Shown: positions 16,701 to 36,988 of the stretch, piece by piece | Position numbering within the stretch: the first letter of the stretch is position 1 | Layout of the letters: every line of letters starts with the position of its first letter | Source of the DNA: Eubacterium sp. | GTDB lineage: Bacteria; Bacillota; Clostridia; Lachnospirales; Lachnospiraceae | Direction: 5' to 3' | Assembly: GCA_017619835.1 (NCBI GenBank) | Contig: JAFZRN010000030.1 | Location: forward strand, 1-48,165 | Length of the DNA stretch: 48,165 bases | The notes under the pieces: model-generated | What the model was told of the DNA's origin: nothing | What the model saw: the letters and a program-made list of their open reading frames with translations, nothing else | Database searches by the model: none | Position numbers and translations under genes: made by a program

Positions 16701-17478
16701 CGGAACGGATGAATCTCTTTACGGATTCGAGTATCCGTTTATGGATGCTGCGAACACCAGAGCCAAGAAATCTGTTTCGGAGATAAAGCATGAGGCGATG
16801 GAAGATTCTCCGACCATAGAGATACCAGAAGAGGTGCTCGAACCGGAGTATCCGGAGAAAGTGGCTCTTGAGGAATCGGCTGAAAGTCCGGATGATGCAG
16901 CTGTGGAGAAAGCAGCTGAGATGGAAGCAATGAGAGCCCGCGCGGCAACCAGAGGAACCATCATACATGCGCTCTTCGAAAAGCTGGATTATGGTAGGGT
17001 GGCTTCCAAAGAGACGCTTAAAGCGGAGTTCGACAGAGTTCTGGCAGGAAGCCATTTTGAAGAAGAGGAAAAGGTACTGGTCGATACTTCCATGCTGATA
17101 CGCTTCTACTCGGAAGATGAAGATTCTTTATTCGTACGAATGAAGAGAGCTTACCTTGCAGGGAAGCTTTACAGAGAACAACAGTTCATCGCAGGGCTTA
17201 ACCTAGATGAACTGAAGAGCCCTGAGGACTATACGGTCATTCAGGGTATCATAGATGCATTCTTCTACGAAGGAGATGACGAGCATATAATCCTGGTGGA
17301 TTATAAGACTGACAATGTTAAGACCGGCGATGAGCTGATCGGACGCTATGCGGCGCAGATGTATCTCTATGCCACCACGCTCGAAAAGCTGACCGGCCAC
17401 AGGGTTGTTGATGTCATCCTTTACTCGACACGATTCGGAGAAGTGCATTATACAGACTGGCGCAAGAAAAATTTCTAA
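13723..17478 (+). CDS. addA: ATP-dependent helicase/nuclease subunit AddA
   Basis: 1251 residues, typical for AddA. UvrD-type helicase fused to a RecB-type nuclease; partner of AddB. Visible: EAQQEVL Q-motif near the start, Walker A AAAGSGKTAVLVERI (about 25), Walker B YIYIDEYQDSN (about 388-398), a QSIYGFR motif (about 428), the VRIMSIHKSKGLEFPVVFV motif V (about 813), RLLYVAMTRAKEKL motif VI (about 895), and the C-terminal nuclease with GTIIHALFEKL and LVDYKTDNV (about 1193). A GTG at 13714 is also possible; I prefer ATG 13723, which gives the usual start close to the Q-motif, though the gagg site is then 12 nt away. It appears co-transcribed with addB. Confidence 0.93.
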   Translation: MADWNEAQQEVLDSLDEKQNILVSAAAGSGKTAVLVERIIRTVLQGKAGIDEILVVTFTNAAAAQMKEKIIAALERTISESGNPALEKQLALAENADIMTIDSFCGKVVRDNFSLADIDPSYDIYDSEEISLLQEDILDEVLDGYYRDNAVMKKLAGFLMSKNKDDSSIKKFILAISRVADSFAVPEKWIRDAREGDDPAWIKDYHESLKALAQDSLEYLINCRDFMYENGYVDLDDKKKKAMDSILEMYDEDISLMMGIIGSESLADLKLRLSGGWKSFQKKKLEPYFDDELLEDFKGKREKIKKAFDLKDIYDEDQIHHELQVSRDYIDVLLDITLSFRERLMQEKKKQKKYEFSDISHAAYRVLSDVETGEETAVAKRLAEVYKYIYIDEYQDSNDLQENILNCVARKNDLGNTKNVFMVGDVKQSIYGFRLARPELFNEKAGRYAEDDGGRLIHLNMNYRSRADILAAANFVFESVMTKAFGGIEYDENVKLNTPPKDVYDDNFPEADDESRVGGIPEVILINTDHDDNDDDPDLVVEEDYSNDEAETIEIGRRIKLLVEGDPGNGIEPLLIRNEEYRKDRPKSERNQPYRPVRYGDIVILKRATKGSSFMLGIFEQMEIPVSLEDRNGYFDAIEIVTVLSALRVIDNIQQDIPYASLLTSPMAGISEAELAIIVSLSVDRFMSLADKCRLFMEGYIDSEDASLKDIARKLKKINDLIEKWSGLRPYVDIATLVDTIVSDTDYDAYVAAMPDGERRIANLKILGVRARKFEAVKTSGLMDFLRYIDKCRIHDIDFGEARAPHDVGNEVRIMSIHKSKGLEFPVVFVMSLGRGFIMKDLSENVIADGNYHVAMNQFSLVKDKIKVKDKSIKKEIIKTLKQQSLKAEESRLLYVAMTRAKEKLILSGCYSKATPVIPALSDNLLDFVRYAVEKHDPSDKRLVVEKLSKDLIIADFTKAFVKKNFDYTEDITKLLSKIDDEKEKNKEKYEAFGTDESLYGFEYPFMDAANTRAKKSVSEIKHEAMEDSPTIEIPEEVLEPEYPEKVALEESAESPDDAAVEKAAEMEAMRARAATRGTIIHALFEKLDYGRVASKETLKAEFDRVLAGSHFEEEEKVLVDTSMLIRFYSEDEDSLFVRMKRAYLAGKLYREQQFIAGLNLDELKSPEDYTVIQGIIDAFFYEGDDEHIILVDYKTDNVKTGDELIGRYAAQMYLYATTLEKLTGHRVVDVILYSTRFGEVHYTDWRKKNF

Positions 17479-17500
17479 AGAAGAAAGGGTAGCAGTGATT

Positions 17501-20500
17501 ATGAAAAAAATAGGGAAGATGATGCTTGGCATATTGGCGATATGTTTTATCGTTGGGTTTATTATGCCTTATGAGGTACATGCTTCGGAGGTATGGGATG
17601 GAACTACTATTGCAACTGGGTTTGCTGGTGGTGATGGAACTGAAGAAAATCCGTATCAGATAGCCAACGGAGCGCAGCTTGCGTATCTGGCACAGCAAGT
17701 TAATAATGTGGATAAATATTCTAAAGGAAAGTACTTTGTATTAATGAATGATATTGATCTTGGAGAGGAGAATGAGTGGACGCCGATAGGGGTATATGAT
17801 TCTTCATCATATTATTTCTATGGGAATTTTAATGGCGAAAATCATAAGATAAGTGGTTTATATATCAGAAATATAGATGATGATAATTTTGGTTTGTTTG
17901 GCAATGTAGTTAGTGGTGAGATAAAAAACCTGACTGTTGAAGGCGATATATTATTATCTCCGGATGTAAAATATGAAACATATGTAGGAGGAATATCGGG
18001 TTATTGTGATAGTTCTACAATCATTAATTGTGTATATTCTGGAATTATTACAATCGAGCAAAATGGTAATGAGATTTATCTGGGTGGCATAGTAGGCAAA
18101 CCGGTTAATTCGAATATTACTGAATGTAACAATATGGGTAAAATATTAGTTACCAGTAAGAACTCAAAAAACTCAGATAATGTGTATATGGGTGGTATTA
18201 TAGGTTATTTGTATGATTCGGAATTATCTGATTGCTCCAATTCGGGATTAATTGAAGCTTTTGGTGATATTATAAAAGATCAAATGAGTATGGAAATGGG
18301 TGGCATAATAGGCTATTCAATAAATTCGAAGGTGTCTGATTGTACCAATTCAGGAAGCATTCATTTTTTCGGTGATAATCCAGATAACTATGATTATTCT
18401 ACAATAGCATTAGGCGGTATAACAGGAGATATTGATTATTCGGAAATCTTTAATTGCACTAATTCAGGGGAAATTTCATTTAGTGGTAATAATATATACT
18501 TTGCTGTTTTAGGTGGTTTGACAGGATGTTTATATTATACAGATTGTATAAACAATAGTAACTCGGGAGATATATCATATGCTGGAGATGGTTCGGAATA
18601 TGTTTATATAGGTGGCATTTCAGGACAAGCATCTTATTATTCGATGGCAGAGGATTGTAGTAATTCCGGTAAAATACTAAATAACTGTTCAAAAACGTTA
18701 TATACATTGGCCGGTGGAATATTGGGAATATCGTCAGATGATTCGACAATTACAAACTGCGTTAATTCGGGAATGATTTCGGGTTACACTACAGAAGGAA
18801 CGGCATATATCGGAGGTATAGTAGGAATTAGTAGAGGTGATACAACCAAATGCTTTAACTCCGGTTCGGTTGAGTCGAGTGATTATGCAGGCGGGATAGC
18901 GACATATGTTAGTGAATATTATAAAGAAATGATTAAAGACTGCTATTATACTGAGATTGCTTCAGTTTCGGGTGACGTAATATGTGATGCTGGAACAAAA
19001 TTAACTGAAGATAACTATTATACTGAAATGACATCCTTATGGGATATTGTTGAAGGAGTTCCTCGTTTACGTATGGGAACGAAGGATGATCCATATTATG
19101 CTGTAAACTGGAGTAGTTTATACGAAACTATGCAGAGGGGTGGATATATAAAGCTTGATTCTTCAGATGGCAAGATAGTTTATGGTACCGGAAATGAGAC
19201 TAATAAGGAAAGTGAACTCGTCGTTCCCCAAAAAACGGACGTTATTATTGATCTTAATGGTAACACGGTAGATAGAAATGATACCGATGACCCTCAGACT
19301 GCAGATGTAATTACGGTTGATGGCAATCTTGAGCTTATGGGTAAAGGAAGCATCACTGGTGGTGCAAAAGGAATTGTATTTGGTGACAAAGGAACACTCA
19401 GTATATCAGGTGATCCAATTATCAAAGATAATGTTGAGAATGTATATCTTTCGACGGGAAAGGCAATCATGGTTAATGGAACACTTGGTTCGGATGCATG
19501 TATAGGTGTTACTACGGAAGCTATTCCTGGAGAAAACAGTCTTGTAGTTTTAACATCAGGACTTTCAGATAAAGGTAATTATGAAAGCTTTATAAGTGAT
19601 AATACAGAATATGCAGTTACTTTAGATAGTAATGGCGAGGCAGCTATATGCTTAGGTTGCACTGTTACATTTGTAGATGAAGATGGAACTGTTCTTCAGA
19701 GTGGCAAAGTAGGCCTCGGAGACTTACCAAAATTTAAAGGTGATATACCGACGAAGGAAGAGACTGATCAGTATACATATGAGTTTGCAGGATGGACACC
19801 TGAGATTGAAGTGGTGACGGGTGACGCTACCTATACTGCAACGTATACAGCAACTGAAAAACCTACTCCTACACCGGAGACTACACCAACGCCTGAAGTA
19901 ACACCGACACCGGAGGTTACGCCGACATCGGAAGTAACACCAACGCCGGAGGTTACGCCAACATCGGAAGTGACACCGACGCCGGAGGCTACGCCAACAT
20001 CGGAAGTGACACCGACGCCGGCAGAAATCCCAACACCAGAAACCACACCAACTCCTGAGGAAAATGTGACACCGATCCCAGAGATAAATGTGACACCGAC
20101 ACCGGAAGCGAGTGCGGTTCCTACGGAGCAACCTGTAAATCCTTCAGAGGAATTAAAGGATGCTAAAACTGTTGAAGCTGAGATACTGTCATTAGATAAT
20201 GACGAAGATCCTGTTGATTCAAGCTTTATTGTTCTTCAGCCAAAGGCTTCAAAGGTTACAAAGAAATCCATCAAGCTTACATGGAAGAAGGCTGAGGGTG
20301 CTGTTAAATATGTGATCTACGGTAATAAGTGCGGCAAGAAGAATAAATATTGTAAGATAGCTGAATCTACAAAACTAAACTACACTTTAAAGAAGATCAA
20401 CGGTAAGAAGATCAAGAAAAAGACTTTCTATAAATTCATGATAGTGGCAGTTGATAAAGATGATAAGGTTGTATCAAAATCAACAGTAATTCATGTAACT

Positions 20501-20797
20501 ACTACAGGTGGAAAGAATGGGAATGCCAAGTCAGTCAAGACAGCTGCAAAGAAAAACAAGGTAAGCTTAAAGTTTGCGAAGTCATTTAAACTTAAAGCAA
20601 AAAATGTAGCACCTTCAAAGAAGGTTAAACTAAAGAAACATACTGGTGTATCCGGACTTAGGTATGAATCAAGTGACGTTTCTGTTGCAACCGTATCCCC
20701 GAAGGGAGTCATCGCAGCAACTGGCAAGGGAACGTGCAAAGTTTATGTATATGCTCAGAACGGAGCATGTAAAGTGATTACCGTAAAGGTTAAATAA
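17501..20797 (+). CDS. Large secreted GLUG-repeat surface protein (first tandem copy)
   Basis: 1098 residues from the ATG at 17501, which opens on a signal peptide ([20 protein letters not shown], ending VHASE); the frame runs open upstream inside addA, but gaaaggg lies before this ATG. Order of parts: a mature N-terminus [19 protein letters not shown] and TPIG typical of GLUG proteins; about eight to nine GLUG-type repeats (GGIIGYL, GGIVG, CSNSG/CTNSG patterns, about 90-500); a beta-helix-like segment (IIDLNGNTVDRND...SITGGAKGI, about 550-710); an InlB-type repeat ([15 protein letters not shown]...FAGWTPE, about 720-780); a TPTPEV linker (about 788-880); an FN3-like domain and a Lys-rich Ig-like module ending [15 protein letters not shown]. 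Likely adhesin or cell-surface structural protein. It is more AT-rich than addA and 71% of its architecture is repeated in the next gene. Confidence 0.85.
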   Translation: MKKIGKMMLGILAICFIVGFIMPYEVHASEVWDGTTIATGFAGGDGTEENPYQIANGAQLAYLAQQVNNVDKYSKGKYFVLMNDIDLGEENEWTPIGVYDSSSYYFYGNFNGENHKISGLYIRNIDDDNFGLFGNVVSGEIKNLTVEGDILLSPDVKYETYVGGISGYCDSSTIINCVYSGIITIEQNGNEIYLGGIVGKPVNSNITECNNMGKILVTSKNSKNSDNVYMGGIIGYLYDSELSDCSNSGLIEAFGDIIKDQMSMEMGGIIGYSINSKVSDCTNSGSIHFFGDNPDNYDYSTIALGGITGDIDYSEIFNCTNSGEISFSGNNIYFAVLGGLTGCLYYTDCINNSNSGDISYAGDGSEYVYIGGISGQASYYSMAEDCSNSGKILNNCSKTLYTLAGGILGISSDDSTITNCVNSGMISGYTTEGTAYIGGIVGISRGDTTKCFNSGSVESSDYAGGIATYVSEYYKEMIKDCYYTEIASVSGDVICDAGTKLTEDNYYTEMTSLWDIVEGVPRLRMGTKDDPYYAVNWSSLYETMQRGGYIKLDSSDGKIVYGTGNETNKESELVVPQKTDVIIDLNGNTVDRNDTDDPQTADVITVDGNLELMGKGSITGGAKGIVFGDKGTLSISGDPIIKDNVENVYLSTGKAIMVNGTLGSDACIGVTTEAIPGENSLVVLTSGLSDKGNYESFISDNTEYAVTLDSNGEAAICLGCTVTFVDEDGTVLQSGKVGLGDLPKFKGDIPTKEETDQYTYEFAGWTPEIEVVTGDATYTATYTATEKPTPTPETTPTPEVTPTPEVTPTSEVTPTPEVTPTSEVTPTPEATPTSEVTPTPAEIPTPETTPTPEENVTPIPEINVTPTPEASAVPTEQPVNPSEELKDAKTVEAEILSLDNDEDPVDSSFIVLQPKASKVTKKSIKLTWKKAEGAVKYVIYGNKCGKKNKYCKIAESTKLNYTLKKINGKKIKKKTFYKFMIVAVDKDDKVVSKSTVIHVTTTGGKNGNAKSVKTAAKKNKVSLKFAKSFKLKAKNVAPSKKVKLKKHTGVSGLRYESSDVSVATVSPKGVIAATGKGTCKVYVYAQNGACKVITVKVK
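19863..20112 (+). repeat. In-frame Thr-Pro repeat region coding [12 protein letters not shown]
   Basis: Tandem 18-nt subunits organised as 36-nt higher-order units encode [12 protein letters not shown], with about three clear units at 19897-20010 and degenerate copies either side. The paralogue at 21007 has only a short version (about 23026-23110), so the linker has expanded or shrunk since duplication. Such repeats are prone to slippage that would change the distance between the GLUG head and the C-terminal modules. Confidence 0.8.
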
Positions 20798-21006: not shown

Positions 21007-23775
21007 ATGAAAAAAACAAGTAAATTGATGCTTGGAATACTGGCGATATGTTTTATCGTCTGCTTTGTTATGCCGTATGAAGTAAATGCGTCGGAAGCAT
21101 GGGATGGCACTATAGCAACTGGGTTTGCCGATGGTGACGGAACCAAGGAGAATCCGTATCAGATTGCTAACGGAGCGCAGCTTGCATATCTGGCACAGAT
21201 GGTTAATAGCGAACCGGGCAGTTCTAAGGGAAAATATTATATTATTACCGATGATATAGACCTTGGAGAGGGAAATGAGTGGACACCTATTGGAAGGTTT
21301 GATAGTAATTATAATTTTTCTTTCTGTGGGTATTTCGATGGTAAAGATCATACGATAAGCAATTTATATATAGCGAACAATGTGACAGCATTAAATGGCT
21401 TGTTTGGCTATATAATGGATAGCAAGATTAAAAACCTGACAGTAAAAGGCGATTTTTCAATTTCATCAGATGTATCTTCAATTATAGAAGTGGGAGGAAT
21501 ATCAGGCTATAGCGAAAAATCGACGGTTACCAGTTGTACATATTCAGGTTCTATTACGATTGACGGAAATGGATTAAGTAATGATATATTTGCAGGTGGA
21601 ATAATAGGATATTCTGTTGATACTATACTAGATGATTGCAGTAACTTAGGTGATATCAAAGTATTAAGTGATGATATACGTACATATTTAGGTGGATTAG
21701 TAGGATTATTATCAGTAAAATCAGAGATTATAAATTGCAAGAATACCGGGGATGTTTCTTTCTCGGGATCCTGTAATATACTGTCGCTATTAGGTGGTAT
21801 AACAGGATGTATGGACAAACAATCTTATATTGAAGGCTGTAGTAATTCAGGATCGATTGAAAATGCTTCTACAAATACAAATAATAAGACTGCTGGTGGA
21901 ATAGTAGGTTCGGCTTACGATAATTCGGGTGTTTCAAACTGCAATAACACTGGGGTGGTTTCTAATCCTGATTCAAACGGATCATCATATGCGGCTGGTA
22001 TTGTGGCATATGGTGATACTTCTATTGAAGTTGAAAAGTGTTTTAATTCCGGGTCAATAGTAACAAGTGATTTTGGTGGAGAAATTACATCGATTAATAT
22101 AAATGTTGATGATTCATATTATAAAGAGGATACCAAGCTTGAAGCAAAGAATATTGTTGATAGTGGAACAGGGTTAACTGAAGAAGAATATTATACGGAA
22201 ATGAAGCCTTGGTGGGAGATAGTTGACGGCGTTCCTCGTTTACGTTTAGGAACGAAGGATGATCCATATCTTGCAATAAACTGGAGCAGTTTATATGAAA
22301 CATTGCAGAAGGGTGGATATATCAAGCTTGATGGTACTGATGGAAAGATAGTTTATGGTACCGGAAATGATACGAATAAAAACAGTGAACTTATAGCTCA
22401 GATAGATGAGGACATTATAGTTGATCTTAATGGTAACACGATAGATAGAAATGATACCGGAAGTCCCAAAACTGCAACTGTCATTATGGTTGATACCGAT
22501 CTGGAGCTTACCGGAAAAGGAAGTATCACCGGTGGTGCAAAAGGAATTACATTCGGTGATTATGGAACCCTCAGAATATCAGGTGATCCAATCATCAATG
22601 ATAATACCGAAAATGTATGCCTTCCGACAGGAAAGACAATAAAGGTTACAGGAGCGCTTGGTTCAGATGCATGTATCGGTGTGACTACGGAAGTAGTTCC
22701 TGATGAAGAGAATACTGTTGTAATAACATCAGGACTCTCGGATAAAGGCGATAATTATAGCTTTATAAGTGATAATGATTATGCATTAACTCTAAACAGT
22801 TCCGGTGAGGCGGCATTATGCTTAGGCTACAGAGTTACGTTTGTTGACGAAGATGGTACTGTGCTTCAGAGTAGCAAATTAGGTGTTGGCGATACTCCTA
22901 TATATAAAGGTGAGACACCTACAAAGGCAGAAACAGATGAGTATACATATGAATTTGCAGGATGGGATCCTGAGATAGATAAGGTGACGGGTGATGCAAC
23001 CTATACTGCAACTTATACATCGGTTGTAAAACCTACACCTACACCGGAAGTGACACCTGCACCGGAAGGAACTCCTACTCCTGAAGCAACTGCTGTTCCT
23101 ACCGAGCAGCCTGCAAATCCTTCAGAGAAATTAAAGGATGTAAAAACAGTTGAAGCTGAGATACTGGCATTAGATAATGATAATGACCCGGCTGATTCAA
23201 GCTTTATTGTTCTTCAGCCAAAGGCTTCAAAGGTTACAAAGAAATCCATCAAGCTTACATGGAAGAAGGCAGAAGGCGCAGTTAAATATGTGATCTACGG
23301 TAATAAGTGTGGTAAGAACAATAAATACTGTAAGGTGGCCGAATCCCCAAAATCAAACTATACTGTTAAGAAGATCAATGGAAAGAAGATAAAGAAAAAG
23401 ACTTTCTATAAATTCATGATAGTGGCAGTTGATAAAGATGATAAGGTTGTATCAAAATCAACGGTTATCCATGCAACTACTACAGGTGGTAAGAATGGAA
23501 ATGCCAAAGCAGTCAAGACTGCCGCAAAGAAAAATAAGGTAAGCTTAAAGGTTGCGAAGTCATTTAAACTTAAAGCAAAAAATGTAGCGCCTTCAAAGAA
23601 AGTTAAACTAAAGAAACATACAGGTGTATCCGGACTCAGATATGAATCAAGTGACGTATCGGTTGCAACTGTATCCAAGAAGGGTGTCATCAAAGCAACC
23701 GGCAAAGGAACATGTAAGATTTATGCTTACGCACAGAACGGTGCTTGCAAGGTGATCACTGTAAAGGTTAAATAA
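21007..23775 (+). CDS. Large secreted GLUG-repeat surface protein (second tandem copy)
   Basis: 922 residues. Same architecture as 17501-20797: signal peptide ([20 protein letters not shown], ending VNASE), [19 protein letters not shown], fewer GLUG-type repeats (about 90-400, GGISGYS, GGIIGYS, GGLVGLL, GGIVGSA), the same beta-helix-like segment ([12 protein letters not shown]), InlB-type repeat, a much shorter Thr-Pro linker (about 674-700), FN3-like domain ([20 protein letters not shown]) and Ig-like module ending [15 protein letters not shown]. Ribosome site agaaggg before the ATG. The GLUG part has diverged strongly from its neighbour while the C-terminal third is nearly identical, including a 78-nt block (20215-20292 and 23193-23270) without a mismatch. 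Role as adhesin or surface layer component is inferred. Confidence 0.85.
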
Positions 23776-33979: not shown

Positions 33980-34630
33980 ATGACAAATTATTCCTATTTT
34001 GAAGACCAATTGAATAAGGTTAAGGAGCAGGGTGTAAAACCGCGGATTCTCCTTCAGGCCTGCTGCTGTCCATGCAGTTCTCATTGTCTGGAAGTATTAT
34101 ATGGATATTTCGATATCACGGTATTTTTCTATAATCCGAACATAGATGAGCTTGAGGAATATACCAAGAGACTGGATGAGCTGAAGCGATTTACCAAAGA
34201 AGCGGATTTTGCTCTGGATGTTAAGGTTGTGGAAGGACCTTACGAGCCCGAAAAGTTCTATGAGATGGCAAAGGGAAGGGAAGACCTTCCGGAAAGATCC
34301 GAAAGATGCTATGACTGTTATAAGCTGAGGCTTTCAAAGACTGCGGAGTATGCCGTGGAAAACGGTTATGAGTATTTCTCAACAACTCTTTCAATCAGTC
34401 CCTATAAGAATAGTGACTGGATAAATGAGATCGGCTTTGAGCTTGAAGATGAAATGAGAAGGCAGGGAAAAGATCTTACATTCCTTTTCAGTGATTTTAA
34501 GAAGAAGAACGGATATAAAAGATCCATCGAGCTTTCGGAGGAGTATGGTCTTTACAGGCAGGATTACTGCGGCTGTGTATATTCAAAAAGAGACAGGGAT
34601 CTGAAGAAATCCCTGTCGAAAAAAGATTAG
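33980..34630 (+). CDS. queH: Epoxyqueuosine reductase QueH (DUF208)
   Basis: 216 residues. Reduces epoxyqueuosine to queuosine in tRNA, the non-homologous replacement for QueG in many Firmicutes. Cysteine signatures for the metal centre: ACCCPCSSHC (27-36), RCYDCYKLRL (about 110) and DYCGCVYSKRDRD (about 194). The open frame runs upstream through the divergent gene, but the ATG at 33980 is the natural family start. No ribosome site is visible before it, only an A/T-rich stretch with a possible TTGTCA at 33951, so the message could be leaderless. Partner enzyme QueF is encoded 6.4 kb upstream. Confidence 0.9.
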   Translation: MTNYSYFEDQLNKVKEQGVKPRILLQACCCPCSSHCLEVLYGYFDITVFFYNPNIDELEEYTKRLDELKRFTKEADFALDVKVVEGPYEPEKFYEMAKGREDLPERSERCYDCYKLRLSKTAEYAVENGYEYFSTTLSISPYKNSDWINEIGFELEDEMRRQGKDLTFLFSDFKKKNGYKRSIELSEEYGLYRQDYCGCVYSKRDRDLKKSLSKKD

Positions 34631-35496
34631 ATATTGTCATATATTTCCTGCAGTTCGGGAATGCTGAATTCGTAATCCGTATTGCAGAAGTCGCAGTGGA
34701 GATTGACCGGCTTTTCGTCATCCAGCATGGAACGTATCTCTTTTTTGCCGAGACTGATGAGAGCCTTTGTTACGCGGTCTTTGCTGCAGTTACATTTATA
34801 CTGAACATCTCTTGTTTCTTCGATGTTCAGATCACCCAGGATAGATATCATCATATCCTCGGGAGTCATACCTTTGTTAAAGAAGTCTGTTACGGAACTG
34901 AGCTCTGACAGGCTTTTTTCTAATCTTGTGATGGTTGCTTCGGAAGCAAAGGGAAGGAGCTGGATGATGAAGCCTCCCGCATGCTTTATCGAAAGGTCCC
35001 TATCCACAAGAACGCCCAGACCTACGGAGGTCGGAATCTGCTCACTTTCTGCAAAGTAGTAGGTAAGGTCTTCACCGATCTCGCCGGTTGCAAGACTGGT
35101 CTGGCCTACATAGGGTTCGCCGATACCCTCATCACGTATGACGGTGAGCGTTCCTTTTCCGACAGCACTGCCTACATCCAGGTGGCCGTTTGCTTTAAGC
35201 GGAAGATCGACAGCATTATTATATATGATACCTTTAACGTTCGGGGAAGCATCGGCAGTAACTGTTATGCTCTTTATCGGGCCGGAGCCATTTACCTTTA
35301 AAGTAAGTACATCGGAATCATTTTTACACATCGCACCCATAAGTGCGCCTCCGGTAAGCAGCCTTCCGAGAGCGGCGCTGCACACTGGACTTGTGTTATG
35401 GATCTGCCTTGCATCCTCTACGGTCTGCCTTGTATATGCGGCAAGAAAACGGACTTCATTTCCGAGTGCCATGCCTTTTATAAGAATATCTTTCAT
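34627..35496 (-). CDS. hslO: Hsp33 redox-regulated chaperone
   Basis: 289 residues. Cytoplasmic holdase activated by oxidation. The start is at 35496, with aaagga before it; the longer open frame to 35874 is antisense sequence over the neighbouring gene. Visible: MKDILIKGMALGNEVRFLAA at the N-terminus, the family core HNTSPVCSAALGRLLTGGALM (about 35-55), VGKGTLTVIRD, EQIPTSVGLGVLVD, and the redox zinc centre near the C-terminus formed by CNC (YKCNCSKDRV) and CDFC. All four cysteines are present, so the redox switch is intact. It is divergent to the Hsp70-like/GrpE fusion gene, 79 bp apart; its stop overlaps the end of queH by 4 bp. Confidence 0.94.
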   Translation of the reverse strand: MKDILIKGMALGNEVRFLAAYTRQTVEDARQIHNTSPVCSAALGRLLTGGALMGAMCKNDSDVLTLKVNGSGPIKSITVTADASPNVKGIIYNNAVDLPLKANGHLDVGSAVGKGTLTVIRDEGIGEPYVGQTSLATGEIGEDLTYYFAESEQIPTSVGLGVLVDRDLSIKHAGGFIIQLLPFASEATITRLEKSLSELSSVTDFFNKGMTPEDMMISILGDLNIEETRDVQYKCNCSKDRVTKALISLGKKEIRSMLDDEKPVNLHCDFCNTDYEFSIPELQEIYDNI

Positions 35497-35575: not shown

Positions 35576-36988
35576 ATGAGAACTGTTATAGGAGTACACT
35601 TCTGGGAAAGACAGGCGAGACTTTGTGTCTGTGATGCTGATTCCGTAAGTGTAGCAGCGATAGATCTTCCTTCGGATATAAAAAGACTCAACATCGTTGC
35701 TACGGATTTTGCGTTGGTAAAAGCCTTTGAAGTGATCGACAACTTCATAAATGAACATATGAACGTCGAGGAATATGCGCTTGTAATGTGTGTTTCTGAT
35801 GATACCGGTCTGAAAGAGATTGAGAGTATGTATAAAACGGCCGAGCAGTGCGGTGTCACTGTCATCAGGACCATGACCGAAACGATGGCTATGGCTTACT
35901 TCTCATATGTTGAATATGAGCTTGTGGGTCCGGTCATGATAGCATTTGCTTCTCCGGCAAAGCTTGCGGTTGCGGGCTATTATATGGATGAGGGTGAAGT
36001 CGAGCTTGAGGATACATTTATCGCAGGAAGATGGAATTCGTCCACTCTGAAAAATGAATTCCTGACGCCGGCGAGCAAGAGGTTCTTTGATAATACCGAA
36101 GCACCGATCGTTGTCTGTGCCGGAACCATGGACAGATGTCTTGAATTCGACCAGGCATTAAAGAGCTATATCAACAGTACCAATCTTTTTGTAAATACGA
36201 ATATTGAATATAAAATGATCGACCCCCAGTCAGTTATCGAGGGCATCGGATTCTTATGCGGCAAGCTTGAGGGAAGACAGGCATTCCAGGGACTCAAGGC
36301 ACTGGATACTCTTTCAGCTTACGAGCTCTGCGTATCCATAAACGGAAGCATGTTCCCGATAGTTGATATGGACAGCCTGTTACCTGTCGAGGAGGAGATA
36401 GAAATTGAGAAATACCCCGAAGCTCCGAAGTCATTTGACGAAATAATCTTCTTTGAAAAGAGAGGAAGAGCTTTCGTTGAGGTATGCAATATAAAAATGC
36501 CGAGGGACCAGATGGAGTTCTTTTACAGGAAACCCTGTAAGCTGACGGTTTCGGCAGATGCTAACAGAAGATTGAAGCTCGGGATAAGGACCAGCCTCGG
36601 AGATAAGGATATCAAGATTGATGTTCTTCAGTCCATGAGTACCGAAGAGGTTGAACAGCCCAAGGAAGAAAGCGTTGCGGATTTTCTTGCAAAGATGCTT
36701 CCGATAATAGATGATCTGGAATATGCGATCAAGTTCGCTGCTGACGAGGATAATCCTTATACTCAGGGAATCATGAAGACATATAATAAGGCGATTCAGA
36801 TACTTGAGAGTAATGGTGTGACGATAATCACAGGAGAGGGCGAGCCATTTGACTATAACACTCAGACGGCGGTTGCCCACGTATCAGATTTAAACCTGCC
36901 CGATAACACCGTTAAACAGGTTATGCAGGCAGGTTATATGTACAAAGGAAAGGTCATAAGACCGGCTTCCGTTATGGTTGCTAATTAG
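35576..36988 (+). CDS. Degenerate Hsp70-like protein fused to a C-terminal GrpE domain
   Basis: 470 residues. Residues 1-235 read like a shortened Hsp70 ATPase domain: TVIGVHFWERQARLCVCD stands where DnaK has IGIDLGTTNS; ALVMCVSDDTGLKEIESMYK and GVTVIRTMTETMAMAYFSY match the pattern of VITVPAYFND...GLEVLRIINEPTAAALAYG; APIVVCAGTMDRCLEFDQAL resembles the adenosine-motif region ILVGG.SRIP.VQ; DPQSVIEGIGFLCGKLEG resembles NPDEAVA.GAA.QGG.L. Residues 240-350 resemble the beta substrate-binding domain (LDTLSAYELCVSINGSMFP; LTVSADANRRLKLGIRTSLG). Residues 366-470 are a clear GrpE domain (FLAKMLPIIDDLEYAI, EGEPFDYNTQTAVAHV, NTVKQVMQAGYMYKGKVIRP) in the place of the Hsp70 lid. The phosphate-binding motifs are not recognisable, so ATPase activity is doubtful. 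GrpE call firm; Hsp70 relation inferred from ordered motif likeness. Confidence 0.8.
   Translation: MRTVIGVHFWERQARLCVCDADSVSVAAIDLPSDIKRLNIVATDFALVKAFEVIDNFINEHMNVEEYALVMCVSDDTGLKEIESMYKTAEQCGVTVIRTMTETMAMAYFSYVEYELVGPVMIAFASPAKLAVAGYYMDEGEVELEDTFIAGRWNSSTLKNEFLTPASKRFFDNTEAPIVVCAGTMDRCLEFDQALKSYINSTNLFVNTNIEYKMIDPQSVIEGIGFLCGKLEGRQAFQGLKALDTLSAYELCVSINGSMFPIVDMDSLLPVEEEIEIEKYPEAPKSFDEIIFFEKRGRAFVEVCNIKMPRDQMEFFYRKPCKLTVSADANRRLKLGIRTSLGDKDIKIDVLQSMSTEEVEQPKEESVADFLAKMLPIIDDLEYAIKFAADEDNPYTQGIMKTYNKAIQILESNGVTIITGEGEPFDYNTQTAVAHVSDLNLPDNTVKQVMQAGYMYKGKVIRPASVMVAN

Follow-up and report, generated by a model that had tools for sequence, protein, structure and literature searches.

The 48,165-nucleotide stretch of Eubacterium sp. 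DNA analyzed here (the window; contig JAFZRN010000030.1) contains a gene whose product resembles Hsp70 over its first three quarters and ends in a GrpE domain, raising the question of what such a protein is and what it does in a cell. An earlier note, made from the sequence alone, had read it as an Hsp70-like protein fused to GrpE. The architecture, a degenerate Hsp70 without lid (hereafter pseudo-Hsp70) followed by a GrpE head, is well supported by the sequence comparisons, and the fold model for it is weak. We propose, with a probability of roughly 0.5, that the fusion is an additional, specialized nucleotide exchange factor acting in trans on a cellular Hsp70, most likely DnaK, with the pseudo-Hsp70 as a client- or partner-binding arm.

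We searched 99 genomes, 61 of the genus (that of the window included) and 38 from elsewhere in the order. The full-length fusion was present in 37 of the 61, one carrier having two copies, which gives 38 proteins, none with an internal stop. In the 38 genomes from elsewhere in the order, the GrpE part alone was matched and no fusion was found. The N-terminal profile (A3) had strong matches in the same 37 genomes, and in 20 of the 31 with a completeness of 90% or more and a contamination of 5% or less (counted from the result rows); in three further genomes the matches were weak and fell on another kind of protein (see below). All 38 strong matches lie in frames of 468 to 561 residues, and the family shares an aligned methionine as start, except for a distant paralog whose start was set from its own sequence. 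Because the frame is intact and full length in 38 copies from 37 genomes, with the N-terminal matches all in such long frames, the joining is not a sequencing error, the possibility that the earlier note had wished to see checked in related genomes; an artefact of joining is already excluded. The distant paralog (L038:3193-4662, minus strand, genome G002) is a second, very divergent fusion copy in the same genome, with 24% identity to the window protein.

The GrpE heads of all 38 proteins group in a single clade (support 99/92, on only 104 columns). Among ten close pairs, the ratio of nonsynonymous to synonymous substitution rates (dN/dS) was 0.03 to 0.11 for the N-terminal part and 0.02 to 0.07 for the GrpE part, two GrpE values being undefined; the pairs are not independent, since some sequences were reused, and dS exceeded 1 in about half. 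Given the intact frames, the single clade and the low dN/dS, the joined form is established within the genus and both halves are under purifying selection. The named carriers are three Lachnospiraceae/Eubacterium records (L054 to L056, the last being strain LC2019), one of them from sheep omasum, and the genus includes ruminant-gut bacteria. Sampling the order evenly (294 other genomes) and the family likewise (396 others) yielded no match at an E value of 1e-6; these searches were a loose first look in which some genomes had only part of their candidates scored, the two samples may overlap, and the family sample includes at least one same-genus genome without the gene. In a phylum sample of 199 genomes, no GrpE frame longer than 379 residues was among the best matches listed, which excludes little. 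Two other long frames were discarded. A 556-residue GrpE frame first assigned to G096 proved to be an ordinary grpE of 199 residues, and a 414-residue frame in G015 (L156:347-1588, plus strand), AroA-like by eye with some 25 residues of a GrpE C terminus at its end, is probably an assembly join.

Table 1. Coordinates of the fusion gene, its parts, its neighbor and related genes
Feature	Position	Strand	Basis
Whole fusion gene, 470 residues plus stop	35576..36988	+	ATG start, 470 codons
Degenerate actin-like Hsp70 nucleotide-binding core, residues 1-243	35576..36304	+	Profile-profile alignment, low-confidence fold model, column counts
Hsp70-type beta substrate-binding domain without lid, residues 244-350	36305..36625	+	A1 profile against DnaK; Pfam match of paralog L038
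Short, mostly acidic linker, residues 351-365	36626..36670	+	Family alignment; predicted local distance difference test (pLDDT) <50 at 351-366
GrpE head (helical dimer module and beta wing), residues 366-470, without long N-terminal coiled coil	36671..36985	+	
hslO (Hsp33 redox chaperone), divergent upstream neighbor	34627..35493	-	PF01430, 315.9 bits
GrpE-less pseudo-Hsp70	L060:2990-4045	-	
GrpE-less pseudo-Hsp70	L061:2980-4041	+	
GrpE-less pseudo-Hsp70	L062:2237-3289	-	
GrpE-less pseudo-Hsp70	L063:1249-2304	-	
GrpE-less pseudo-Hsp70	L064:2006-3058	-	
GrpE-less pseudo-Hsp70	L065:2032-3081	-	

The open reading frame and its clear C-terminal GrpE domain are as the earlier note had them: PF01025 matched residues 348 to 469 of the window protein with 109.5 bits (cut-off, 25.8) and was found in all 38 family members. 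With phmmer, this part aligned with the GrpE of the solved structures 4ani, 1dkg and 3a6m. The dimer helices are conserved in the family alignment, and within them G398, the equivalent of E. coli G122, is kept in 38 of 38 members; the equivalence was taken from the alignment with 1dkg, where residue 122 is the mutated D, and the G122D mutant of E. coli GrpE is described as inactive (PMC10825016). Conservation extends over the beta wing, where D426, K447 and G453 each occur in all members and K459 and R462 each in 37. The match to PF01025 begins at profile positions 31 to 60 in 36 of the 38 fused copies and at positions 7 to 14 in full-length canonical ones (the exceptions are 13 in G004 and 85 in G013, whose copy has an insert), indicating that the long N-terminal coiled coil, or stalk, is gone from the fused GrpE. 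The insert in G013 (L014:1105-2649, minus strand) is about 50 residues long, has many Gly, Ser, Ala and Thr and lies within the head, between two dimer helices.

The N-terminal part is much less evident in single-sequence searches, and three results are weak points of its assignment to Hsp70. Residues 1 to 349 alone had no match in Pfam; PF00012 (HSP70) did not match the window protein and passed its curated cut-off in one of the 38 members (L038, 25.0 bits over residues 214 to 340; cut-off, 20.6); and the N-terminal profile reached the DnaK proteins of the PDB only at an E value of 0.19. Comparison of the 38-sequence profile with Hsp70 by hhalign gave a score of 62.3 (E value of 3e-7), in order through the nucleotide-binding core and the beta substrate-binding domain (SBD-beta). 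The reversed profile scored 12.9, five column-shuffled profiles 11.8, 22.4, 16.0, 13.7 and 19.0, and MreB 26.2. Since the reversed and shuffled controls stayed at 11.8 to 22.4, the alignment is beyond chance, and it reproduces the order of Hsp70-like motifs first noticed by eye: MTETMAMAYFSY falls on the NEPTAAALSYG stretch of Hsp70, VVCAGTMDRCLEF on the adenosine stretch LLVGGSTRI, GIGFLCGKLEG on VAIGACIQGGKLAG, and LTVSADANRRLKLGIRTS on the SBD-beta stretch IEVSFDIDANGIVNVSAKD. In addition, residues 217 to 362 of the A1 profile align on residues 367 to 512 of the DnaK in 7kru (E value of 1e-3). A low-confidence fold model matched Hsp70 nucleotide-binding domains (NBDs) in Foldseek/VIA, with Ssz1 among the matches, and a second prediction, for residues 1 to 347, brought no improvement (pLDDT of 50.4). 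The profile comparisons, with which the weak fold model agrees, thus support, as previously suggested, a pseudo-Hsp70 in which GrpE stands where the lid would be. That the whole is a chance resemblance or an assembly artefact, as the weak single-sequence scores of the N-terminal part might suggest, is highly improbable in view of the 38 intact frames, the single GrpE clade, a dN/dS far below 1 and the far lower hhalign controls.

The phosphate-1 and phosphate-2 loops, already reported as unrecognizable, were absent from all 38 members in a pattern check, with no DLGGGT or near form. In the place of DLGTTNS stands a conserved GVHFWE-type stretch (H8 in 37 and W10 in 34 of 38 members), while the place of phosphate-2 is ambiguous, being YELVG (114-118) by hhalign and FASPAK (124-129) by eye from spacing. 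The residue at the position of the NEPTAAA glutamate, which we take to be catalytic, is kept as E102 in 37 of 38. The loss of the motifs in every member supports the proposal that the pseudo-Hsp70 is nucleotide independent. When it was aligned with the genus's own DnaK (L033), residue 63 fell on DnaK residue 108 and G183 on G312, which leaves a deficit of about 45 residues ahead of the connect stretch and of about 75 to 85 between the phosphate-2 and adenosine stretches. The NBD lacks much of subdomains IB and IIB, and the alpha-helical lid is absent; the GrpE match begins (at 348, the head proper at 366) where SBD-beta ends. The first description of the parts therefore holds for the order of Hsp70 and GrpE and had overlooked the missing portions of IB and IIB and of the GrpE coiled coil.

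The conserved new GVHFWE stretch, together with variable gene neighborhoods, could also be explained if the pseudo-Hsp70 had taken on a role outside chaperoning and the GrpE head were a mere dimerization module. We consider this quite unlikely: mean pairwise identity is 68% in the GrpE half against 36% in the rest of the protein, and the conserved columns reach over the beta wing, beyond what a dimer module should need.

On which Hsp70 would the head act? The residues of E. coli DnaK that touch GrpE are given as 28 to 33, 51 to 61 and the hairpin 276 to 302 (PMC10825016). In the alignment with L033, whose gap borders are of low confidence, gaps occupy 11 of 11 positions in the stretch 51-61, 22 of 27 in the hairpin counterpart 252-278 (the numbering of the genus DnaK is 24 lower there than in E. 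coli, G108 for G132) and 2 of 6 in 28-33. Because these docking surfaces are mostly missing, we do not expect the GrpE head to work on the pseudo-Hsp70 attached to it. The genome of the window also has a separate grpE-dnaK-dnaJ locus, preceded by what we take to be hrcA, with a perfect CIRCE box upstream; it contains one stand-alone grpE only. With the docking parts mostly missing and this locus present, as the earlier note had asked to see settled, action on the cell's DnaK, which it had put forward, is the best inference. A grpE of canonical size was found in 24 of the 37 carriers (the match in G046 being partial), a fragment in G015 and none in 12, the completeness being below 90% in 11 of these 12 genomes. 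Of the good-quality carriers, 20 in number, 18 have a canonical grpE, one (G015) a fragment and one (G040) none. The fusion is therefore normally additional to canonical grpE.

An additional GrpE head could instead throttle the DnaK system, by forming mixed dimers with canonical GrpE or by occupying DnaK unproductively while the pseudo-Hsp70 blocks the access of substrates or J-proteins. Such a negative regulator would agree with the kept and conserved helical dimer module, with the missing stalk, and with the absence of a CIRCE box at the fusion gene, unlike at the dnaK locus: allowing as many as 3 mismatches, none was found in the window, and a search for the CIRCE core pattern ahead of all 38 members, over at most 120 bases, likewise gave none. 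Yet the strong conservation of beta-wing residues beyond the dimer helices has no obvious use in a mere blocker, and canonical grpE was not found in those 12 carriers, mostly incomplete as they are. We regard negative regulation as rather unlikely.

The partner could also be another Hsp70. In the genome of the window, a tetratricopeptide repeat (TPR) protein of 1252 residues, with a subthreshold DnaJ (J-domain) match at its start (23.1 bits; cut-off, 27.8), is directly followed by a second Hsp70 of 564 residues (both within L051:3107-8559, plus strand, C15). Matches resembling it, in size and score alone, occurred in 13 of 13 genus genomes sampled, and the single stand-alone grpE of the genome would leave room for a dedicated exchange factor. 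However, the two genes are not linked, and similar Hsp70 matches are present in G003 and G006, both without the main fusion, so that the second Hsp70 and the fusion do not track each other. This partner is unlikely.

An exchange factor acting in trans on DnaK, with client-binding arms, is favored because the N-terminal half of GrpE has been exchanged here for a pseudo-Hsp70 with its own SBD-beta. That half is described as contacting the substrate side of DnaK: the tails of E. coli GrpE reach the substrate-binding site and promote release (PMC12915176), and in a complex from Mycobacterium tuberculosis the long GrpE helices contact both NBD and substrate-binding domain (PMC10803776). In the mechanism that we propose, the head would dimerize via its helices and open the nucleotide cleft of DnaK in trans, and the two pseudo-Hsp70 arms would be placed roughly where stalk and tails normally reach the substrate-binding domain. 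There, independently of nucleotide, the arms might bind clients with low affinity or receive them on their release, which would make the protein a chimera of holdase and exchange factor. Binding, exchange, client holding and the identity of the partner are all inferred. A stronger version, to which we give slightly less than even odds, is a bacterial Hsp110-like machine. Here the lidless, nucleotide-independent body would be the client-holding arm, ADP release and client capture or return would be combined in one complex, and GVHFWE would close off the former ATP site, keeping the arm in a single state.

Other pseudo-Hsp70s occur in the genus. GrpE-less forms of about 352 residues have strong copies in 13 of the 61 genomes; at L060, open frames of about 940 and 1,010 residues, neither with a Pfam match, lie on either side of the gene. 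Two larger proteins of 686 and 674 residues (L039:711-2768, plus strand, G003; L040:4437-6458, plus strand, G030) have another pseudo-Hsp70-like N terminus, a long linker that is acidic and of low complexity, and a GrpE head that exceeds the Pfam cut-off. By hhalign, their N terminus matches the 352-residue group (E value of 2.9e-10), Hsp70 (4e-5) and, at only 0.005, the main fusion, and their heads, on long branches, do not group with those of the main fusion. They may, though we are unsure, represent a second fusion event.

The gene neighborhood was dropped as a functional clue, because, in a comparison with 37 other loci (some of these contigs being short), hslO was found beside the fusion in G050 and G052 alone, apart from the window. 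Clustering of neighboring open reading frames, which left out the fusion itself at L043 and L047, gave several unrelated settings and no fixed neighbors; by eye, other loci have zinc transport, nuclease-like and repair-like genes. Elsewhere in the window (17405-20797 and 21007-23775) lie two similar large tandem open frames with linkers, probably secreted or surface proteins by eye.

The earlier note knew of no described protein of this form. Our literature search aimed at an Hsp70-GrpE fusion likewise gave none, by title or start of abstract, among the matches listed, subscription journals being mostly outside its range. The terms "GrpE domain" and "fused" led to a study of Myxococcus xanthus PilZ-DnaK chaperones and a separate GrpE, GrpS (PMC10313047). 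According to a 2015 review, eubacterial genomes encode one type of Hsp70 exchange factor only, GrpE, while eukaryotes also have Hsp70-derived factors (PMC4753570); some bacteria, such as M. xanthus, have two GrpE copies (PMC10313047, PMC11019930). The bacterial chain that unites an Hsp70 body with a GrpE head may be an independently evolved, Hsp70-derived exchange factor, and with it one can test whether bacteria possess a counterpart of the Hsp110-type helpers of eukaryotes. It is also a natural test of the purpose of an Hsp70 body in an exchange factor and, since the N-terminal half of GrpE is here exchanged for SBD-beta, of the effect of that half on the substrate-binding domain of DnaK. 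Together with the GrpE-less relatives, it shows how far Hsp70 decay is compatible with continued selection.

Compared with known systems, the fusion shares with GrpE (PF01025) a head above the curated cut-off, conserved dimer helices and beta wing and the invariant G122 equivalent, and differs in having a pseudo-Hsp70 instead of the N-terminal coiled coil and tail and in usually occurring beside a canonical grpE. With DnaK/Hsp70 (PF00012) it has in common the order of actin-like core, connect and adenosine-like stretches and SBD-beta, whereas phosphate loops, lid and much of IB/IIB are missing and a single member exceeds the Pfam cut-off. The M. xanthus proteins CsdK1 and CsdK2 (PilZ-DnaK) and GrpS also show a bacterial DnaK joined to another domain and more than one GrpE per cell, but as separate proteins; an Hsp70 joined to GrpE is not mentioned in the portions of these reports consulted (PMC10313047, PMC11019930), the latter being an account of DnaK duplication in bacteria. 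Hsp110, described as an Hsp70-derived exchange factor that is also a holdase (PMC4753570), resembles the fusion, as does Grp170, in combining an Hsp70-derived body and exchange activity (predicted here) in one chain. Hsp110 keeps the Hsp70 layout with a helical domain and long insertions, while the fusion has no helical lid and a reduced NBD, and its exchange activity would come from the GrpE head. Ssz1 of the yeast ribosome-associated complex, lidless with a rudimentary SBD and no ATP hydrolysis, is reported to be a working low-affinity chaperone (PMC7083937). It is likewise a lidless Hsp70 and was among the matches of the low-confidence model, but it is eukaryotic, binds ATP and has a J-protein as partner, whereas the pseudo-Hsp70 here is joined to a GrpE head. 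By analogy, the fusion would be comparable in role to eukaryotic Hsp110 and would be the exchange-factor counterpart to a lidless Ssz1 paired with its J-protein.
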